A stretch of DNA of 50,690 nt from Lewinellaceae bacterium (GTDB taxonomy: Bacteria > Bacteroidota > Bacteroidia > Chitinophagales > Saprospiraceae). The notes beneath the pieces are model-generated. The model saw only the letters and a list, made by a program, of their open reading frames with translations. It had not been told where the DNA came from and searched no databases. Below are positions 10,431 to 50,351 of the stretch, piece by piece; position 1 is the first letter of the stretch; each line of letters begins with the position of its first letter. The DNA is taken from positions 1 to 50,690 of the forward strand of contig CANHEE010000006.1 of assembly GCA_947459655.1 (NCBI GenBank). The letters are read 5' to 3'. The position numbers and the translations under genes were made by a program.

Positions 10431-10973
10431 GTGGTAAAAAAAGTAGATTTAAAAAACTCGGAAAAAAAGATTTCATTTGACGATTTCGTTTATGATTTCT
10501 TTTGCAACGACCCTTATTTCAAGCAGCTTGATTTCATTAATCAACTCAGATTGCATTCAAGTGGTTGCGCAGTTTTCCAGAAAGCAGGTTACAATGATGA
10601 AAAAAAATACGTAACCCTTACAATTTATCCGCACAAATTTATTGCAGAAAAGTGGTTGGCCGACCAAAGGACCCCACAAAAAAATCTCGTAAGTGCCATC
10701 GATGCAGACAAGCTGAATTGCGTTGTCGCCAATTTGACGTGGCGCACAAGATCAGCAGCAAGCAGACAAAGGAAAACGACCAGTACAACTGGTTATACCG
10801 GCGTTTACAAGGAGCATACCCGTTACAGAGCTCTAATTTCCAATAAGGGCACTACCATTCATCTTGGAATGTTTGATACTCCCGAGGAAGCTGCGGAAGC
10901 TTACAACAAAAAATCAATCGAACTTTTTGGAGAAGAAGGTAAGATCAACAAGATAATCCCAAGGAAAGACTAA
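10431..10973 (+). CDS. AP2-domain protein with decayed HNH-like region (paralog 1)
   Basis: A protein of 180 residues from a GTG start; no in-frame ATG lies between the upstream stop TAA and this codon. Residues about 15-75 form a conserved N-terminal part (FDDFVYDFF...GCAVFQK). Residues 63-115 resemble an HNH homing-nuclease core: a PHKFIAEKWL helix, then DADKLNCVVANLTWRTRS as in D-G-x-x-x-N-x-x-x-N-L, but the catalytic His is replaced (SAIDAD). Residues 121-174 are an AP2 domain, with GYTGV, an R-Y-R-A strand, HLGMFDTPEEAAEAYN and ELFGEEGKIN. The HNH/AP2 pairing is known from mobile endonucleases; here the lost His suggests a DNA-binding regulator. A clear paralog lies 247 bp downstream. 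Confidence 0.7.
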   Translation: MVKKVDLKNSEKKISFDDFVYDFFCNDPYFKQLDFINQLRLHSSGCAVFQKAGYNDEKKYVTLTIYPHKFIAEKWLADQRTPQKNLVSAIDADKLNCVVANLTWRTRSAASRQRKTTSTTGYTGVYKEHTRYRALISNKGTTIHLGMFDTPEEAAEAYNKKSIELFGEEGKINKIIPRKD

Positions 10974-11047
10974 ACAAAGTGCGCCCTGAAAAATCCAACA
11001 TGGATTAACTGTGGGGGCTGCTTATTTAGTAATTTTACGGTTATCCA

Positions 11048-11139
11048 AAAGTCTTTACCAGTCGTTCAGAGGCTTATTCAAGAACTGCTTCTGTTGAACA
11101 GCAATGTTCCGACAGGTAAAGACTTTCTTTACCAAAGTC
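11048..11139 (+). promoter_or_regulatory. Inter-gene RNA switch candidate with alternative hairpins
   Basis: A long stem pairs 11048-11064 with 11110-11126: 12 bp, an A-A mismatch, then 4 bp. Its right arm (GACTTT, 11121-11126) can instead pair with AAAGTC at 11134-11139 across a 7-nt loop, so the two folds exclude each other. Inside the long stem is a small hairpin CTGTT/AACAG at 11091-11101. The element ends about 80 bp before the second AP2 gene. Confidence 0.45.
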
Positions 11140-11220
11140 CCTTTGAATCCTAGGGCAACGTCTACTCTTGTGCAGACCGATGAGTAACGAAATTCATGTC
11201 AAACAGTATCGTATTCCAAA

Positions 11221-11790
11221 GTGCTATACAAAATCAAACTAACCAACGCAGATGACCACGTCGTTCTGGACGATTTCGTGTTCGAGTTTTTATCCAACGA
11301 CGTTTACTTTAAATCAATCAATTTCGTAAATCGCCTCAGAAAACATTCAACCGGTTGCGTAGTTTTTCAGAAATCATGGCCAAAAGCGGGAGGAGGTTTC
11401 AAGATTGAAACCATTTATCTTCACAAATACATTGCCGAAAAGTGGCTTGCTGATCAGTTCACGGGTGACAACAACCTAGTGGGTGCAGTAAATGGTGATA
11501 AGCTGGATTGCCGTGTGGAAAATCTGATGCTTCGATCAAAAGCCACAATGAGCCGTCAACGCAAGACTCGTTCGAACAGTGGCTATACGGGAGTCTCCAA
11601 AGATGGCTCCAGATTCAGAGCAGTAATAGCGCTCAATAGGAAGCACATCCATCTTGGTATGTTTGATACTGCCGAGGAAGCGGCCCTGGCGTACAACCGG
11701 AAATCTGTTGAGCTTTTCGGAGATGCTGCAAAAATCAATGTCATCAAAACCAAACCTGCCAGCATTCCCAAAAGGCCAGTTCCCTGCTAG
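11221..11790 (+). CDS. AP2-domain protein with decayed HNH-like region (paralog 2)
   Basis: A protein of 189 residues, again with a forced GTG start in the context CAAAGTG, following an in-frame stop. It aligns to the gene at 10431 over nearly its whole length, with well over half the residues identical by eye. Shared blocks are DDFV, NRLR/NQLR, HKYIAEKWLADQ, NGDKLDCRVENL, SRQRKT, GYTGV, IHLGMFDTAEEAALAYN and ELFGDAAKIN. The HNH-like region has GAVNGDK where an active enzyme has H-x-D-G, so nuclease activity is unlikely. The AP2 part is at about 125-178. The tail after it (KPASIPKRP) is Pro/Lys rich. Likely a duplicated DNA-binding protein; target unknown. Confidence 0.7.
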   Translation: MLYKIKLTNADDHVVLDDFVFEFLSNDVYFKSINFVNRLRKHSTGCVVFQKSWPKAGGGFKIETIYLHKYIAEKWLADQFTGDNNLVGAVNGDKLDCRVENLMLRSKATMSRQRKTRSNSGYTGVSKDGSRFRAVIALNRKHIHLGMFDTAEEAALAYNRKSVELFGDAAKINVIKTKPASIPKRPVPC

Positions 11791-24807: not shown

Positions 24808-27765
24808 CTATCTTATGAGTAAAACCTCCGAGGTCACATCCTCTGTCTCACCATTTTTCTTGAGCACTTTGACATGTGAAATATACACACCCTCCGTTTG
24901 TGGCTTTCCTTTAAAAGACCCATCCCATCCTATGTCTTCCGTTGGATAATAGTCTAGCGCCTCAAAAACCATTACGCCCCATCGGTCAAATACCCTGAAT
25001 GAAATGATTTTATCAACTGAGCTTCCAGCGTGAAGCCTCAATATATCATTGGTTCCGTCTGAATTGGCTGAGAAAATATTTGGCACGAACAAAAGTACTC
25101 GGCTATCTACCAGCACGTTTATGGTGTCTTTGAACTCGCAACCGATACTATCCTTCACCACTACTGTATAGAAGGTGTTTTTCAAAGGTTTCAGCCAGGC
25201 TTCAAGACCATCCGGATTAACGGAAGTGGATGGAGACCAGACCACGCTGCTTACATCAGTGAAAGTTGGAATAACGGAAACCAACGTGCTGTCACCAAGG
25301 GCTATAACCCTGAGTTGTTCATTAATATTTATCCTTTTAGGGACCGGATTAACAAGATTCTCGGAAATCTGAGTTGTACAACCGAATGAATCGCGCACAG
25401 TAATCGTATACTTTCCTTCCTTCAGACCTTTAAACAACCTGTCTGAACTGAATGCAATACCGTCAAGACTGGTTGTAAAGGGTGCCGTTCCTCCGCTAAT
25501 GGAGTCCAGCGTAATCTGACCATCGGCAAAACCATTGCAAGATGGAGGCCGGGTGCCGGCAAAAAGCGTGATTGGGGGACTACTGAAAATCTGAAAAGAA
25601 TCAACACCGGTACAGGCGGCATCATCTGAAACGCTTACCCGATACCAACCCTTATCGGCAACTACTATACTGTTTGTAGAAAAATTATTGTAACTCCATC
25701 GATAGTTAAGAAAGGTGCCATCTGCAGTTAATGTTGCCTGCTCTCCGTAGCAGAGATACTGCTTACTGGCGGATATCTTCACAACAGGTACACTGCGCAC
25801 AAAGAGATTAAGTGTCACCACACTATCACAGCCGTTTCTGTTGCGCAGTCGCTCAATGTAGACTCCTTCCTGTTGAAGAGTTCTGCTAAAAAAAGTATAG
25901 GTTTGGCCACTGCATATGGTGTCCTTCAATGCAAAGCCCGCACCCGGGTCTACGGTGAGATTGACCAACAGAATACTATCACACCCGGTTGAGTTCTGGA
26001 ATTTTAGCGTATAAACACCCGTCTTGCTCAGCAGCTGTCCGCCGATGTTCAATACTGAATCTTTGCAAATGAAAATGTCTTTTCTGGTGGTATCGGTACT
26101 GATGGGCCTAAGAGTAAGGTTTATAACCGAGTCACAGCCATTCAAAGCTGAATTGGGTAGTACAATTTTATAAAATCCGGGAGCGCTGTACTGCTTACCT
26201 AAAAAATCAAAAGCAGCGCCACCGCAAAGTCCCTTATCCAGGCTCGCCGGATTGTTTTTTAAAACCTGCAACTTGAGCGTGTATATCGAATCACAAGTAT
26301 TTGCTGCGGCAAACACAGCCTTCAGTGTAGTGTCAATGTTGTAACTCACCCCTTGAAAAACAAAGGGTTTCTCTCTACAAATTGATTTTGACTCCGTAAC
26401 TCGGGAAGAGGGTTTAACTACTACATTAATTGTATCTGCAAAAGAACAATTTTGAGCATCCTTGATAGTTAGCGCGTAGGTTCCGGAGGCTGTTACAAAA
26501 AGTCGCTGCGTTGTTTCGCCCGTACTCCAGCTGTAGTTTGCCGAAGTGATTCTTGGATCAAGGACCAGTGAGGTGTTGTCGCAAAATTGCTGATCCTTCC
26601 CCAGATTAAAGTATGGAACAGGATGAATAGTTACCATTGAACTCACTTTATTGACGCAATTTCCATCTGTGATACTAACGGAGAATACACCAGACTTCTT
26701 CACTTCAAAGGTAGGCGTAAGCACGAAGGTCGAGTCCCATTGATACCGCTTTGCATCCGGTGCCTCTGCATTGAGAATTACCATCTTATCTTCGCAGGAA
26801 GTCACCGTCGATTTCCAGTTAGGAGGCATAAGATTAGGTACGCGCAGTAGTACTGTATCCTGAAAACGTAGAGTGTCGGTGAGGCAGAAATGATCTACAA
26901 TCGCGATGTATGTCGTTGTTTTGCTGATGTTTGCCGAAGGTTCTCTAATGTCAACAGAATCCAGTCCATCCACCGGGCCCCAGTTAAATGCATTACCATA
27001 TGAGGCACTGAGTTTGATTGGCGAGGCAGTGTTGCAAATGACTTTTTCACTGAAGTTGTCCAGGGCCGAGCATCTTACAACCTCCACTTCCTGAATGTTG
27101 CTGTCGTCACCGGTACCGGCTGAAAAGCCCCAATAGACAAACTCATCATTACCAAATACTCCTCCAATAATATCGTAGTCAAGGGACAACCGCTCCTGAC
27201 AGTCGAAAAAAACCTTCATATTTTGAGCAACCGGATTCCAGGTGATTCTGAGAAAATGATCGTTGCCGTCTTCAATATTCAAAAAAGTGCTTCCTGCAAG
27301 TGCATTTATCGGACCTGCGAGGGCATCAGGGGTTCCGTGGCTAAAATTCCCGTTTTTCTGTATGGCAATATGGTCGTTATTAGGGTCATTGTATGCCACG
27401 TCACTGTAGGTATCAATTTCGACACTGAGGGCAGGCGAAAGTCCGGAAATACCAAAGTCTTCACCGTTGGCGAGATTGGCGAATCCCTTTTGCGTCAGAA
27501 AAGAAAATGCAATACCATCTGCTCCATCATTGTTTTTGTCACCAAGGTTAACTTTGGCCAGCAAATCAAATGGTGCGTTCAGGCTGATTTTTTGTGTACT
27601 CCAAACTGCCCCAAAGTTGGAAGCAATATTCTCGGTCAGGCGGTATCTTCTGTCTTTAAGCCATTTTGCGGAAGCAATGCTTTCAAGTGCTGCAGTCTGA
27701 CCGAATGTACTACCGCAAGATATGAGTAAAAAGAAGATAGTTAAACTACGGATTTTGTGTTTCAT
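24808..27765 (-). CDS. Secreted L-type lectin-domain protein with T9SS type B sorting domain
   Basis: A protein of 985 residues from ATG 27765; an earlier in-frame start at 27807 would put 14 residues before the signal peptide. The signal peptide covers about 1-22 (ends TFGQ). An L-type lectin domain (about 25-230) shows the KVNLGDKNNDGADGIAFSF and SVEIDTYSDVAYNDPNNDHIAI calcium-site patterns. PKD/Ig-like domains lie at about 235-450. Four tandem modules of about 75 residues then each contain an NGCDS-type motif. A SprB-like unit (about 745-810) precedes the C-terminal type B sorting domain (VPNIFSANSDGTNDILRL, FDRWG, WDGSFKGKP, GVYIS). It is exported by T9SS; its sugar target is unknown. Confidence 0.88.
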   Translation of the reverse strand: MKHKIRSLTIFFLLISCGSTFGQTAALESIASAKWLKDRRYRLTENIASNFGAVWSTQKISLNAPFDLLAKVNLGDKNNDGADGIAFSFLTQKGFANLANGEDFGISGLSPALSVEIDTYSDVAYNDPNNDHIAIQKNGNFSHGTPDALAGPINALAGSTFLNIEDGNDHFLRITWNPVAQNMKVFFDCQERLSLDYDIIGGVFGNDEFVYWGFSAGTGDDSNIQEVEVVRCSALDNFSEKVICNTASPIKLSASYGNAFNWGPVDGLDSVDIREPSANISKTTTYIAIVDHFCLTDTLRFQDTVLLRVPNLMPPNWKSTVTSCEDKMVILNAEAPDAKRYQWDSTFVLTPTFEVKKSGVFSVSITDGNCVNKVSSMVTIHPVPYFNLGKDQQFCDNTSLVLDPRITSANYSWSTGETTQRLFVTASGTYALTIKDAQNCSFADTINVVVKPSSRVTESKSICREKPFVFQGVSYNIDTTLKAVFAAANTCDSIYTLKLQVLKNNPASLDKGLCGGAAFDFLGKQYSAPGFYKIVLPNSALNGCDSVINLTLRPISTDTTRKDIFICKDSVLNIGGQLLSKTGVYTLKFQNSTGCDSILLVNLTVDPGAGFALKDTICSGQTYTFFSRTLQQEGVYIERLRNRNGCDSVVTLNLFVRSVPVVKISASKQYLCYGEQATLTADGTFLNYRWSYNNFSTNSIVVADKGWYRVSVSDDAACTGVDSFQIFSSPPITLFAGTRPPSCNGFADGQITLDSISGGTAPFTTSLDGIAFSSDRLFKGLKEGKYTITVRDSFGCTTQISENLVNPVPKRININEQLRVIALGDSTLVSVIPTFTDVSSVVWSPSTSVNPDGLEAWLKPLKNTFYTVVVKDSIGCEFKDTINVLVDSRVLLFVPNIFSANSDGTNDILRLHAGSSVDKIISFRVFDRWGVMVFEALDYYPTEDIGWDGSFKGKPQTEGVYISHVKVLKKNGETEDVTSEVLLIR

Positions 27766-27886
27766 TAAGGTAATTTGCATGATGTTAAAATAGATAGGCA
27801 TAGCCAACCTGAACGTAAAAATCCGAAAAATCTCCGCTTAACCAAAGCTTTTTGATGACTTTTAATGCAACACCCGGTAGAAAACA

Positions 27887-28048: not shown

Positions 28049-28732
28049 GTGTTTTCACAAAATTTCTTCAGCAACTACTCAAAGATTCAGACACCGACTC
28101 TGGAGATGGTCATCTTTACTTTTGTACTGTCTTTCCTACTTTCAGGCATGCTGGCATTCGCGTATGATAAAACGACGCTGACTACCTTCCGGAAAAAGAA
28201 TTTCACCCAGTCTCTGATACTCAGCGCCATCATTGCAACCATGGTTTTACAGGCCATCGGTGATAATGTCGCCTCAGGTCTTGGGATGCTCGGAGCACTC
28301 CACGTAATCCAGTTCAGAAATGCGCTGCGCAATCCACGCGACATGATTTTTATGTTTGCAGCCCTCGGAACCGGAATATCTTGCGGATTGTATGGTTTTT
28401 ACATCGCAACCCTCGGCACACTGCTTTTTTGTATACTTGCATTTGTACTTCGCTACACCCCTTATCATTTCGGTAACCACGCAGAGTGGTTTTTGTACAT
28501 CAGAATAAACGACATCCGCACAAACGAGGAGCAGTTGATGTCCATCATCAACACGCACTGCAAAGCATACTCGCTGGAAATACTTGAATCCGAGCGAACC
28601 ACTGATAAAACGATATTTGAATACAAGTATTCCGTCGTGCTGAAAGACGACAGCAAACAAAATGAGTTGATACACTCACTTGAGAAACTGGACGTAAGAA
28701 CGGTCAAACTCACCAGAAAAGAAGAGGAATAA
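28049..28732 (+). CDS. DUF4956 family inner-membrane protein
   Basis: A protein of 227 residues. Hydrophobic helices lie at about 18-38, 53-70 and two between 97 and 133. Between them is the family signature LGALHVIQFRNALRNPRDMIF (81-101). A soluble C-terminal part (about 145-227) has an alpha-beta pattern resembling a small ferredoxin-like or ACT-like domain. DUF4956 proteins elsewhere are linked to polyphosphate-polymerase (VTC) and CotH genes; neither is present here. Instead it heads an operon with an HlyD-type adaptor (26 bp gap) and a TolC-like protein, which suggests that it is the inner-membrane component of an envelope-spanning system. That role is inference. Confidence 0.8.
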   Translation: MFSQNFFSNYSKIQTPTLEMVIFTFVLSFLLSGMLAFAYDKTTLTTFRKKNFTQSLILSAIIATMVLQAIGDNVASGLGMLGALHVIQFRNALRNPRDMIFMFAALGTGISCGLYGFYIATLGTLLFCILAFVLRYTPYHFGNHAEWFLYIRINDIRTNEEQLMSIINTHCKAYSLEILESERTTDKTIFEYKYSVVLKDDSKQNELIHSLEKLDVRTVKLTRKEEE

Positions 28733-28758
28733 TTCTGCACAATGTCACTGATACCATT

Positions 28759-29757
28759 ATGAAAATCAATCTGCTGTACATATTTTGGGCAATTGCATGC
28801 TGCAGCTGCATCTGGTTGTTCAACAATATTTTCGGGGAGTCGGAATCTACTTTTTTTGGTACCGCCGAAAATGAGGGCATTGTCCTGAATTACGACCACA
28901 CGGTGCTGGTGAAGCGAGTCCTGGTAAAAAACGGAGCAATGGTTAAAAAAGGGGACACACTTGCAATATTTTACAGGACTGACCTTGACAGACGGCAGAT
29001 TGAAAAACAAAATGAAATTGCTTCCATCCAGCTGGAAAATAAAAACAGGACTGAAGAACTGAAAAATGAAATCAGCACCCTCGAGTCCAAAAGAAATGTT
29101 CTCGCCATAGAGCTGAACCACCAGCAAGAATTGTTGGCCGCAGAATCGGGCGTTCAAAAGGAATTAATGAACCTTCTTGACAAGGACAAGCCTGCACTCA
29201 GCAGCAATCTCAAATCCGAACGGATCAGAACGCTGAAAGAAGAAATTTCAGCCATCGATAAGCAGATTGAAACGCAAAAAACAGGACTGCGACAGAAACA
29301 GGCGGCGGAAAAAGCAATGGCTACCCAGAAAACAGCACATGCGGGAGAAGAACTCCGCTTTTTAGAAAGCGAAAGGGAAAAACTGACCCTGCTTGCACCA
29401 ATGGATGGCTTTGTTGAACAGGTGTTCATTACAGAAAACACCATTGAACCGCAGTTGAAACCACTGGTAAAAATCAATCCAATAGGTACCAATCGGATCA
29501 GAGGTTTTATTTACGAAAATGCAGAAATCGCCTGCAATATTGGCGACACCGTACAAATTGTATCAGTTGCAAGACCGGATGTCAGTTGTAATGGTGGCTT
29601 CATTGGTGTAAGTCCCGAAATGGTCGAACTTCCGGTAAGGCTGAGAAAACTACCGGAGATAAAAAGCTGGGGACGAGAGGTTTATCTGCAGTTACCCCCG
29701 GAAAACAAATTCTACATCGGAGAAAAAGTCAGCATAAAACTGAATCCAAGGCAATGA
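28759..29757 (+). CDS. HlyD-type periplasmic adaptor (membrane fusion protein)
   Basis: A protein of 332 residues. One N-terminal membrane helix (about 5-22) leaves the rest in the periplasm. A split lipoyl-like domain begins at TVLVKRVLVKNGAMVKKGDTLAIFY (about 50-75) and closes at LTLLAPMDGFVEQVFI (about 212-228). Between them is a long coiled-coil hairpin (about 78-208) rich in Glu, Lys and Gln. A beta-barrel part follows (GTNRIRGFIYENAEIACNIGDTVQI). It matches adaptors that bridge an inner-membrane partner to a TolC-type channel. It overlaps the next gene by ATGA. No pump gene is adjacent. Confidence 0.82.
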   Translation: MKINLLYIFWAIACCSCIWLFNNIFGESESTFFGTAENEGIVLNYDHTVLVKRVLVKNGAMVKKGDTLAIFYRTDLDRRQIEKQNEIASIQLENKNRTEELKNEISTLESKRNVLAIELNHQQELLAAESGVQKELMNLLDKDKPALSSNLKSERIRTLKEEISAIDKQIETQKTGLRQKQAAEKAMATQKTAHAGEELRFLESEREKLTLLAPMDGFVEQVFITENTIEPQLKPLVKINPIGTNRIRGFIYENAEIACNIGDTVQIVSVARPDVSCNGGFIGVSPEMVELPVRLRKLPEIKSWGREVYLQLPPENKFYIGEKVSIKLNPRQ

Positions 29758-30998
29758 ACCGCAGCATATTCCCTGCCCTTTTGTTTCTTATCCTCCCTGC
29801 GTTAGTGCATGCGCAGAGGGTTCAGATGAACGATTTTCTCGCAACCGCAAGAAATGATGCAAGGTATAAAAGTGGCATCGAACTCTCGACCTATGTCAAG
29901 GGCATGAATTACGCACTTCCCCTGCTGCAAAAAGTGGAATTCCGAATGGGTGCAGATGAGACCAGCCTTGCTCAGCGCCAGTATGGTATCGGACTTGGAT
30001 TTAATTCTCTGGTACAGCGAAAGGAACAATTTCAATACCAAAATAGTCTGGCAGAGTCTCTGCAAAAAGAAGCACAGGTTTCTTTTTCTGCTGCTGTTCA
30101 GGAACGCTACCTGCTTATTGCACAGTCTATTTTCCTTTCCGAACTCCTTTTCGCACAAAATACACTGAATGAGCTCTTTGCGCTCAAAAAGAAAGTACTT
30201 AGATCTATGCTGGAAGGAGGAATTGATGTCAAAGTCAAAGATGTTATTCTGAATGAATCGGATCAGTTTGAACTGGAGAAAAACATCGCGCAGAACAATC
30301 TTCAGTACCGGCAAGGCCTGCAGAAGGCCGCTTATTTCTGGGGCTCTGCACTTAGCGAAATTGACAGCAGCGGACTGGTTAGCCTGGAAACCATTGCAGA
30401 CTTTGCCGCTAAATTTAATCCGGACGAATCTATTTCACCTAATGCAGCGTGGCGTGATGCGCAGATTGCCCTGGCCAAAAACGAATACAGACTGGAAAAA
30501 GCAGACGAAAACCAGCTCATCAGTACTTTTCAGCTGGGCGTTCAGGAAAACGAAAATGCAAGTGCCTGGCAAAATCCCTTCTTCAGGCTTGGCATAAGGA
30601 TACCCATTATCCCATACAACCGACTCAAGTACAATGACTATTTCGTCAATATCCGAGATATTGAGCTCAAGCAGAATATGGAAAACGATAGGTTAAGATA
30701 CAACATTTCCCTCTCTGCGGAAAGTCTGAAGCAGATGATAAGCGATTACCGACAACAGTTGAACATGCAGCAAAGTAGCCTGACCGGACAAATAAGAGGA
30801 AATGCCAGAATTATGGCAGAAATTACTGCTGCTGAGCAGATTGAGCTGCAGATTATCGATCAAAAAAGGGTAATTGACCTGGTTAAAACGGCAAATGCCA
30901 TCAGACAGGAATACATTAATCTGCTGATGCTGAGTGGCAAAATAACAAGTTTTCCATTGCGAAACTACCTCAGAAACGACTTCGCGGAATGGAACTGA
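29754..30998 (+). CDS. TolC-like outer-membrane channel protein
   Basis: A protein of 414 residues with a signal peptide (about 1-20, ending VHAQ). The mature part is almost entirely long helices with two related halves: EKNIAQNNLQYRQGLQKAAYFWG in the first and LRYNISLSAESLKQMISDYRQQLNMQQSSL in the second. A strand-rich stretch (STFQLGVQENENASAWQNPFFRLGIRIPI) could be part of the barrel. This matches the TolC/outer-membrane-efflux layout, though sequence motifs are weak. Its start overlaps the adaptor stop, so the three genes form one transcription unit. Confidence 0.7.
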   Translation: MNRSIFPALLFLILPALVHAQRVQMNDFLATARNDARYKSGIELSTYVKGMNYALPLLQKVEFRMGADETSLAQRQYGIGLGFNSLVQRKEQFQYQNSLAESLQKEAQVSFSAAVQERYLLIAQSIFLSELLFAQNTLNELFALKKKVLRSMLEGGIDVKVKDVILNESDQFELEKNIAQNNLQYRQGLQKAAYFWGSALSEIDSSGLVSLETIADFAAKFNPDESISPNAAWRDAQIALAKNEYRLEKADENQLISTFQLGVQENENASAWQNPFFRLGIRIPIIPYNRLKYNDYFVNIRDIELKQNMENDRLRYNISLSAESLKQMISDYRQQLNMQQSSLTGQIRGNARIMAEITAAEQIELQIIDQKRVIDLVKTANAIRQEYINLLMLSGKITSFPLRNYLRNDFAEWN

Positions 30999-49044: not shown

Positions 49045-49171
49045 GAATAATAATGCCAATTATCCGTTTTTGTATCGATCTACTTCATACGCTCAATAAA
49101 CAGCGTTTATTATCGACCGGCGCTTTGGGATAAGCGGTTTACCGGAAGGTTATTCATAACGTAAAAACTTG

Positions 49172-49762
49172 GTGAGCGAGGCGATTACGACATTCCTGAC
49201 TTCTGTTAAAAGACTCTGCCCTCGGCTTACGCATACCGAACTGGCATATATTGAGTCCGGACTAACCATTACTGAACTAAAACCTAAGGAGTTTTACATC
49301 CGGGCAAACACGATTCAAAGCCGCGTTGGTTTTGTCTACAGGGGGCTGCTTCGATCCTTTTACATCGACAGCAAAGGGCATGACATTACAGTAAATTTCG
49401 TATGTGAAGGCCGCTATGCCACCCACTACACGGCACTCATCACAGCTACCCCAGGTCGATATCACTTTCAATGTGTTGAGCCTGCCATTGTGGTTAATCT
49501 TGCTTATGGCCATATTCAGGAAGGCTATGATCGTTATGCAAACATTGAGCGCTACGGAAGGCTAATTGCGGAAGAGGTCTTGAAATTCCAGCAAATGCGA
49601 CTGGAAAGTTTTCTTTTCGAAACAGCAGAACAACGTTACCTCAGCTTTGTGGATGAAAATCCTGAATTATTCAATCGGGTATCCTTATCGCATTTATCTT
49701 CGTACCTTGGGATTGAGCGTCAAACGCTTACTAGGATAAGGCAAAAACTTGCGGCGGGTTAA
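49172..49762 (+). CDS. Crp/Fnr-family regulator (first of pair)
   Basis: A protein of 196 residues from GTG 49172 (TTG at 49169 is also in frame; no ATG exists near the start). A cyclic-nucleotide-binding-type beta roll (about 15-120) has KPKEFYIRANTIQSRVGFVYRGLLRSFYID. The C-terminal helix-turn-helix (about 150-195) has FVDENPELFNRVSLSHLSSYLGIERQTLTRIRQKL. The phosphate-binding cassette (GE...R(S/T)A) of true cAMP receptors is absent, so another ligand or none is likely, as in many Bacteroidota members. It lies 22 bp before a second, different regulator. Confidence 0.82.
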   Translation: MSEAITTFLTSVKRLCPRLTHTELAYIESGLTITELKPKEFYIRANTIQSRVGFVYRGLLRSFYIDSKGHDITVNFVCEGRYATHYTALITATPGRYHFQCVEPAIVVNLAYGHIQEGYDRYANIERYGRLIAEEVLKFQQMRLESFLFETAEQRYLSFVDENPELFNRVSLSHLSSYLGIERQTLTRIRQKLAAG

Positions 49763-49784
49763 TCATAAAAATTCAGCTCTTACA

Positions 49785-50351
49785 ATGATTTCAGAAAGTA
49801 TACATCAGATCATCGCTTTGGATGAGTGGGAAAAGGAGCACATTGATAATGCCTTTACGAAAGTTTCACTGACCAAAGGCGAATTGTGGATTTCACAGGG
49901 AAAAATCTGCGACCAGGTTGCATTTGTGGTTTCCGGGAAACTTCGCAATTTTTATTTCGATGATGCAGGAAACGAAGTCACCTGTTTTTTCGTAGCAGCC
50001 GACCAATTTGTATCCGCATTCACAAGCTTTTTGACCAATACACCAACACATGAAAATATTTCAGCGCTGGAAGACACCGTCTTAAAGGTAATATCAAAAA
50101 AAAATCTTGAGGACCTTTCGGTAGAAGTTCCAAAGATGCAAATCTTTAGACGGGTTATTGCTGAAAATCTTTTCATTAGCATGGAAAAAAGAATTGTCAT
50201 GCTTCAATCGCAGTCTGCCTTTGAAAGGTATGAAATAATGCTCAGGGAAAATCCGGAAATACTATTGAGTGTTCCGCTCCAATATACCGCTTCTTTTTTG
50301 GGTATTACGCCCCAGCACCTAAGCAGATTGCGAAGGGAACTGGTCAAGTAA
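49785..50351 (+). CDS. Crp/Fnr-family regulator (second of pair)
   Basis: A protein of 188 residues from ATG 49785. The beta roll (about 15-110) has LTKGELWISQGKICDQVAFVVSGKLRNFYFDDAGNEVTCFF and FVSAFTSFLTNTPTHENISALEDT. The helix-turn-helix at the C-terminus has RYEIMLRENPEILLSVPLQYTASFLGITPQHLSRLRREL. No cAMP-binding cassette is seen. It is related to but clearly different from the previous gene, so this is not a recent duplication. Both are likely on one transcript. Confidence 0.85.
   Translation: MISESIHQIIALDEWEKEHIDNAFTKVSLTKGELWISQGKICDQVAFVVSGKLRNFYFDDAGNEVTCFFVAADQFVSAFTSFLTNTPTHENISALEDTVLKVISKKNLEDLSVEVPKMQIFRRVIAENLFISMEKRIVMLQSQSAFERYEIMLRENPEILLSVPLQYTASFLGITPQHLSRLRRELVK

Follow-up and report, generated by a model that had tools for sequence, protein, structure and literature searches.

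A conserved DUF4956, HlyD-type adaptor and TolC-like channel gene trio of Bacteroidota that lacks a pump gene and recurs beside CotH genes

We have described here three tightly packed genes of a Lewinellaceae bacterium, encoding a DUF4956 membrane protein, a HlyD-type periplasmic adaptor and a TolC-like channel. They lie on a single contig of 50,690 nucleotides, which is the whole stretch of DNA that was analysed and which we refer to as the window; the genome is assembled as 2.99 Mb in 175 contigs. The features discussed below are these.

28049-28732, + strand: DUF4956 gene, GTG start, 227 aa
28310..28339, + strand: DUF4956 signature (aa 88-97), RFRTxLRxPR in most relatives
28759-29757, + strand: HlyD-like adaptor gene, 332 aa
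29754-30998, + strand: TolC-like channel gene, 414 aa
31024..31779, + strand: NrtR/AraR-like Nudix regulator (Pfam NrtR_WHD, E=7.5e-26), the gene that follows on this strand

The open reading frames leave a gap of 26 bp between the DUF4956 and adaptor genes, and the adaptor stop and channel start overlap as ATGA, bearing out the packing described in an earlier note on this DNA. The Nudix regulator was considered as a fourth gene of the operon and set aside; its position is not conserved, with none seen beside the other surveyed trio loci, and it therefore probably lies outside the trio unit. Just upstream of the trio and on the opposite strand (24808-27807) is a gene whose product has a legume-lectin fold and a CHU_C tail for type IX secretion, so the host seems to use the type IX secretion system (T9SS), as the trio-linked CotH proteins described below would. 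Elsewhere in the window we noticed by eye two adjoining CRP-type-like regulators of similar length that are perhaps related (49169-50351), and two same-strand neighbours, each about 180 aa long and alike at their starts, that may reflect a duplication (10431-11790).

The first protein belongs to DUF4956 (PF16316), scoring 35.0 bits against a Pfam gathering cut-off of 30.6. An AlphaFold2 model built from an alignment of 77 sequences (pLDDT 87) predicts five membrane helices, at aa 18-42, 50-70, 74-92, 96-113 and 117-135, followed by a C-terminal ACT/ferredoxin-like domain at aa 146-223, a layout that we regard as predicted with good confidence. Foldseek matches this C-terminal domain to ACT and other ferredoxin-like folds, and among these many matches, at E about 0.01, are the MgtC C-terminal domains of M. 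tuberculosis and P. aeruginosa (2lqj and 7qa5). The MgtC family likewise has an ACT-like domain behind five predicted membrane helices, and a profile-profile comparison places the GxGxLGA motif in the same register in both families, although the match is weak (E=0.027). The trio DUF4956 of one relative, G009, matches the Pfam MgtC profile (PF02308) at E=9.9e-5 with 24.5 bits over residues 2-117 of 121, whereas the window protein falls below the cut-off of that family (13.9 versus 31.4 bits). The window protein also differs from MgtC in having the RFR-type motif, which is common to all of the DUF4956 types seen, a few copies having one letter changed. In view of the weak profile-profile match we do not claim membership of DUF4956 in the MgtC family.

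Within the signature, R90 and R97 show no variation across 88 trios, and R at aa 88 and T at aa 91 are nearly universal. At these last two positions the window protein, alone among the 88, has Q and N respectively (28310-28321), which possibly reflects divergence or specialisation. The yeast VTC complex has a polyphosphate channel lined by basic residues (PMC9911596), and the parallel with the conserved basic residues of DUF4956 is suggestive only.

The adaptor is below the Pfam cut-offs for HlyD_D23 (24.6 versus 30) and Biotin_lipoyl_2 (26.2 versus 29.8) and the NCBIfam cut-off for TIGR01843 (34.7 versus 208.65). Its family profile nonetheless matches solved adaptors in the PDB, with EmrA (8zar) at E=5.1e-10 and MacA and HlyD chains as well, and the homology spans the lipoyl and coiled-coil regions. 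The protein has an N-terminal membrane anchor, a lipoyl domain split around the coiled-coil region, and a C-terminal membrane-proximal region (aa 286-332) that is strongly conserved in an alignment of 82 family members. The channel found no useful match among Pfam, NCBIfam or PDB sequences, with no Pfam OEP match up to E=1, and it is therefore identified only through its predicted fold. It has a signal peptide, and its AlphaFold2 model (pLDDT 87 from 10 sequences) has two repeats of a beta-hairpin plus long helix, with E. coli TolC as the top Foldseek match (E=1.3e-12, TM 0.64); we consider the TolC fold, too, to be predicted with good confidence. Pfam for DUF4956, PDB homology for the adaptor and Foldseek for the channel thus agree with the domains that had been assigned to the three genes from the letters alone.

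The trio is widely conserved, and we find at least 88 complete DUF4956-HlyD-TolC trios across Bacteroidota. Scanned with the adaptor profile, GTDB genomes gave 122 relatives, of which the best 80 were kept, all with Bacteroidota-type titles; the non-redundant loci among these, together with the window and three relatives, make up the 80 loci analysed. In this set, drawn from the best 80 of 122, DUF4956 is directly upstream of HlyD at 77 of the 80 loci and a TolC-like gene directly downstream at 79 of the 80, with all three genes on one strand and gaps whose medians are 2 and 0.5 bp. Of the exceptions, L134 is a trio that a spurious short open reading frame divides in the gene calls, and three HlyD-TolC pairs have no adjoining DUF4956, their genomes carrying a trio-type DUF4956 elsewhere. 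Relatives of the window's DUF4956 are present in 21 of 40 related genomes, and nine relatives in this set have the complete trio in surroundings that are otherwise unrelated. All 15 further HlyD loci read from other lineages also contain the full trio. Among the bacteria with the trio is one in culture, Neolewinella maritima (L118). The lineages represented are Saprospiraceae, Chitinophagales, Flavobacteriaceae and a family in another class of the phylum, and this last family accounts for 16 of the 18 genomes with a trio-type adaptor among 296 genomes of the phylum. In that family (L192-L205) the trio keeps a fixed setting, with YceI-like/DUF6580 genes on one side, a short-chain dehydrogenase on the other, and no CotH gene adjoining. 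The co-occurrence in related genomes that the earlier note had proposed as a check is thus amply seen. That three unrelated genes should have clustered by chance has only the low sequence similarity of the channels among relatives (14-21%) to speak for it, and with 88 complete trios, packed spacing and matched phylogeny against it we give it a vanishingly small probability and consider it refuted by the survey.

No ABC, RND or MFS gene lies inside the trio or recurs beside the surveyed trio loci, as the earlier note had supposed in describing an operon with no known pump. By eye, none was seen among the other open reading frames of the window, the nearest of which alone were covered by the family scan. 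The trio adaptor, with its split lipoyl domain and coiled coil, and the channel, with its predicted TolC fold, resemble the corresponding components of HlyD/EmrA/MacA-type tripartite exporters, but the trio differs from these in lacking an ABC, MFS or RND pump gene, in having DUF4956 as the putative inner-membrane partner, and in having a channel unrecognised by Pfam. Adaptors whose inner-membrane partner is not of the ABC, RND or MFS class are familiar from AaeA-AaeB-TolC and some other exporters, and the trio adaptor appears to be paired in a similar manner, although AaeB is a large FUSC-type protein whereas DUF4956 is small and MgtC-like, with an ACT-like domain. We found no published description of this operon in the open-licence literature.

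There is evidence that the three genes have evolved together. Their distance matrices correlate at 0.82-0.88 across the 88 complete trios, although this alone could reflect common descent. A test with paralogues used six pairs of diverged trios, five of them each from a single genome and one with a near-identical stand-in, and in five of the six the paralogue differences agree across the three genes (correlations 0.55-0.95); the sixth disagrees. Conservation in the 88 trios declines from the inner membrane outward, being 0.70-0.88 in DUF4956 helices 2-4, 0.67 in the membrane-proximal region of the adaptor, 0.37-0.39 in the adaptor hairpin, and 0.35 on average in the channel. This gradient, taken from the alignments, fits a role for DUF4956 as the functional centre, and it does not by itself prove contact. 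The proposal of the earlier note that DUF4956 is the inner-membrane part agrees both with this conservation and with the predicted membrane fold; that the three proteins assemble into one machine is something that we still infer.

Neighbour scans show a single recurrent same-strand family of recognisable function, CotH, in proteins that also contain LTD and T9SS-tail domains, and it is found in 12 of 32 same-strand neighbours scanned upstream and 13 of 28 scanned downstream. When an iterated CotH profile was used, a CotH gene directly adjoined the trio on the same strand at 25 of 98 loci and on the opposite strand at none of the 98. About 0.14 loci would be expected by chance on a rough estimated background of seven CotH genes per 4,500, an excess of more than a hundredfold. 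The 26 trio-adjoining CotH proteins all have the CotH, LTD and T9SS sorting-tail domains. Three quarters of the trio loci, including that of the window, have no adjoining CotH, and the five CotH genes of the window's genome are all on other contigs, at least two of them encoding proteins that are about 40% identical, for most of their length, to trio-linked CotH. At the genome level, CotH is present in each of the 21 genomes of the related set that have DUF4956 and in all 27 trio genomes checked, the 17 of other lineages among them, compared with 106 of the 296 genomes of the phylum. In one genus, G055 has its only CotH match directly upstream of the trio, and G138 has neither CotH nor the trio. 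By genus, CotH occurs in eight of eight trio genera versus 78 of 140 overall (p about 0.008, calculated by hand), which is statistically weak, six of the eight being from one family.

The recurrence of CotH as a direct neighbour of the trio is new here, and neither it nor the absence of VTC was remarked upon in the earlier note, which had given VTC and CotH as the main contexts of DUF4956. VTC, a polyphosphate polymerase often seen with DUF4956, was found neither in the window's genome nor in many other trio genomes. Searches for VTC were negative in two of the nine trio relatives of the related set and in all 17 trio genomes of other lineages, so that 20 of 27 trio genomes checked, the window's included, are without it. 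A link between the trio and VTC as a rule is rejected, given the absence of VTC from the window's genome and the 17 of other lineages.

Those DUF4956 loci of the related set that are without the trio are arranged differently, most having VTC and/or a CotH-like gene and three of these having a different adaptor. The three, L042 (2566-5072), L044 (7418-9913) and L045 (7764-12615), belong to a second DUF4956 lineage and show a second arrangement, adaptor-VTC-DUF4956, and L045 also encodes an OEP channel, bringing a polyphosphate-polymerase-type gene together with an adaptor and channel. In clusters without adaptor and channel (L048-L061) the CotH-like proteins beside DUF4956 mostly match a right-handed beta-helix domain, and none of 12 such proteins has a T9SS tail. 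Clusters of cotH, polyphosphate polymerase, DUF4956 and DUF4832 have been described earlier (PMC7112168), and Gram-positive bacteria also pair DUF4956 with CotH (PMC7112168, PMC12345266). SIR_1592 of S. intermedius is reported to combine a membrane domain of MgtC type with an ACT domain inside the cell, its cluster also encodes a polyphosphate polymerase and a secreted CotH, and deletion of the DUF4956-type or the CotH gene of one such cluster affects the level of Pel and reduces aggregation (PMC12345266). The trio resembles these cotH-VTC-DUF4956 clusters, including those beside Gram-positive pel operons, in associating DUF4956, at about a quarter of the loci, with a secreted CotH and in the MgtC plus ACT layout reported for SIR_1592 (PMC12345266; PMC7112168). 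It is unlike them in adding the adaptor and channel, in the absence of VTC from the window's genome, and in the T9SS tail of the trio-linked CotH proteins.

Taken together, these observations suggest a model in which the three genes encode one trans-envelope module serving secreted CotH kinase-like proteins, a reading to which we give about an even chance. DUF4956, with its MgtC-like membrane domain and cytoplasmic ACT-like domain, would stand in the place of the pump, the HlyD-type adaptor would span the periplasm, and the TolC-like channel would cross the outer membrane. We infer that the parts physically assemble, as well as which way the flow goes, what is carried, how it is gated and how it is powered: the ACT-like domain would gate the module from the cytoplasm, and the cargo would most likely be an anionic phospho-compound carried outward, a guess drawn from the VTC, MgtC and CotH associations. 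No energy source for the module is visible. A more specific version, which we regard as quite unlikely, is that the module is a conduit bringing a phosphoryl donor, such as a nucleotide or polyphosphate, from the cytoplasm to the surface, where T9SS-secreted CotH kinases would use it to phosphorylate extracellular targets. The outlet of such a conduit would track the kinase, since T9SS tails are present in 26 of 26 trio-linked CotH proteins versus none of the 12 CotH-like proteins without adaptor and channel.

There are several other models to consider. TolC-type channels and some adaptors are shared among pumps, and the adaptor and channel of the trio could therefore use an ordinary pump encoded elsewhere, with DUF4956 just regulating or anchoring them. 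The ACT-like fold supported by the DUF4956 model favours this in that ACT-like domains are usually regulatory, as do the three HlyD-TolC pairs without an adjoining DUF4956. However, those pairs are all in genomes with a trio-type DUF4956 elsewhere, pump genes are not recurrent beside the surveyed loci, and the membrane-proximal region of the adaptor is far more conserved than its hairpin, as expected with one dedicated inner-membrane partner; we consider a distant pump unlikely.

Two further possibilities we judge very unlikely, and to a like degree. One is that the trio spans the envelope in order to sense or regulate phosphate or magnesium status, in the manner of MgtC, and provides no transport path. 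The match of the G009 protein to the MgtC profile and the MgtC C-terminal domains among the Foldseek matches are consistent with it, as is the action of Salmonella MgtC on phosphate uptake (PMC6658541); yet the relation to MgtC is weak by profile-profile comparison, and a sensor would not require each copy to come with a TolC-fold outer-membrane channel. The other is that the trio is an efflux system for a toxic ion or small molecule, the nearness of CotH reflecting shared surface genes only. HlyD-TolC pairs are commonly part of efflux systems and most trio loci have no adjoining CotH, but CotH alone recurs on the same strand and always with the identical three domains, and the pairing of DUF4956 with CotH extends to Gram-positive bacteria (PMC7112168, PMC12345266).

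The proposed trans-envelope module offers DUF4956, a family with no assigned function, a testable place as the inner-membrane part of an envelope-spanning system, and adaptor-channel systems would gain from it a small, MgtC-like kind of inner-membrane partner. The secreted CotH proteins of Bacteroidota, which are poorly understood, would be linked with a dedicated channel, and the supply of a phosphate donor to a kinase outside the cell becomes a matter for experiment.
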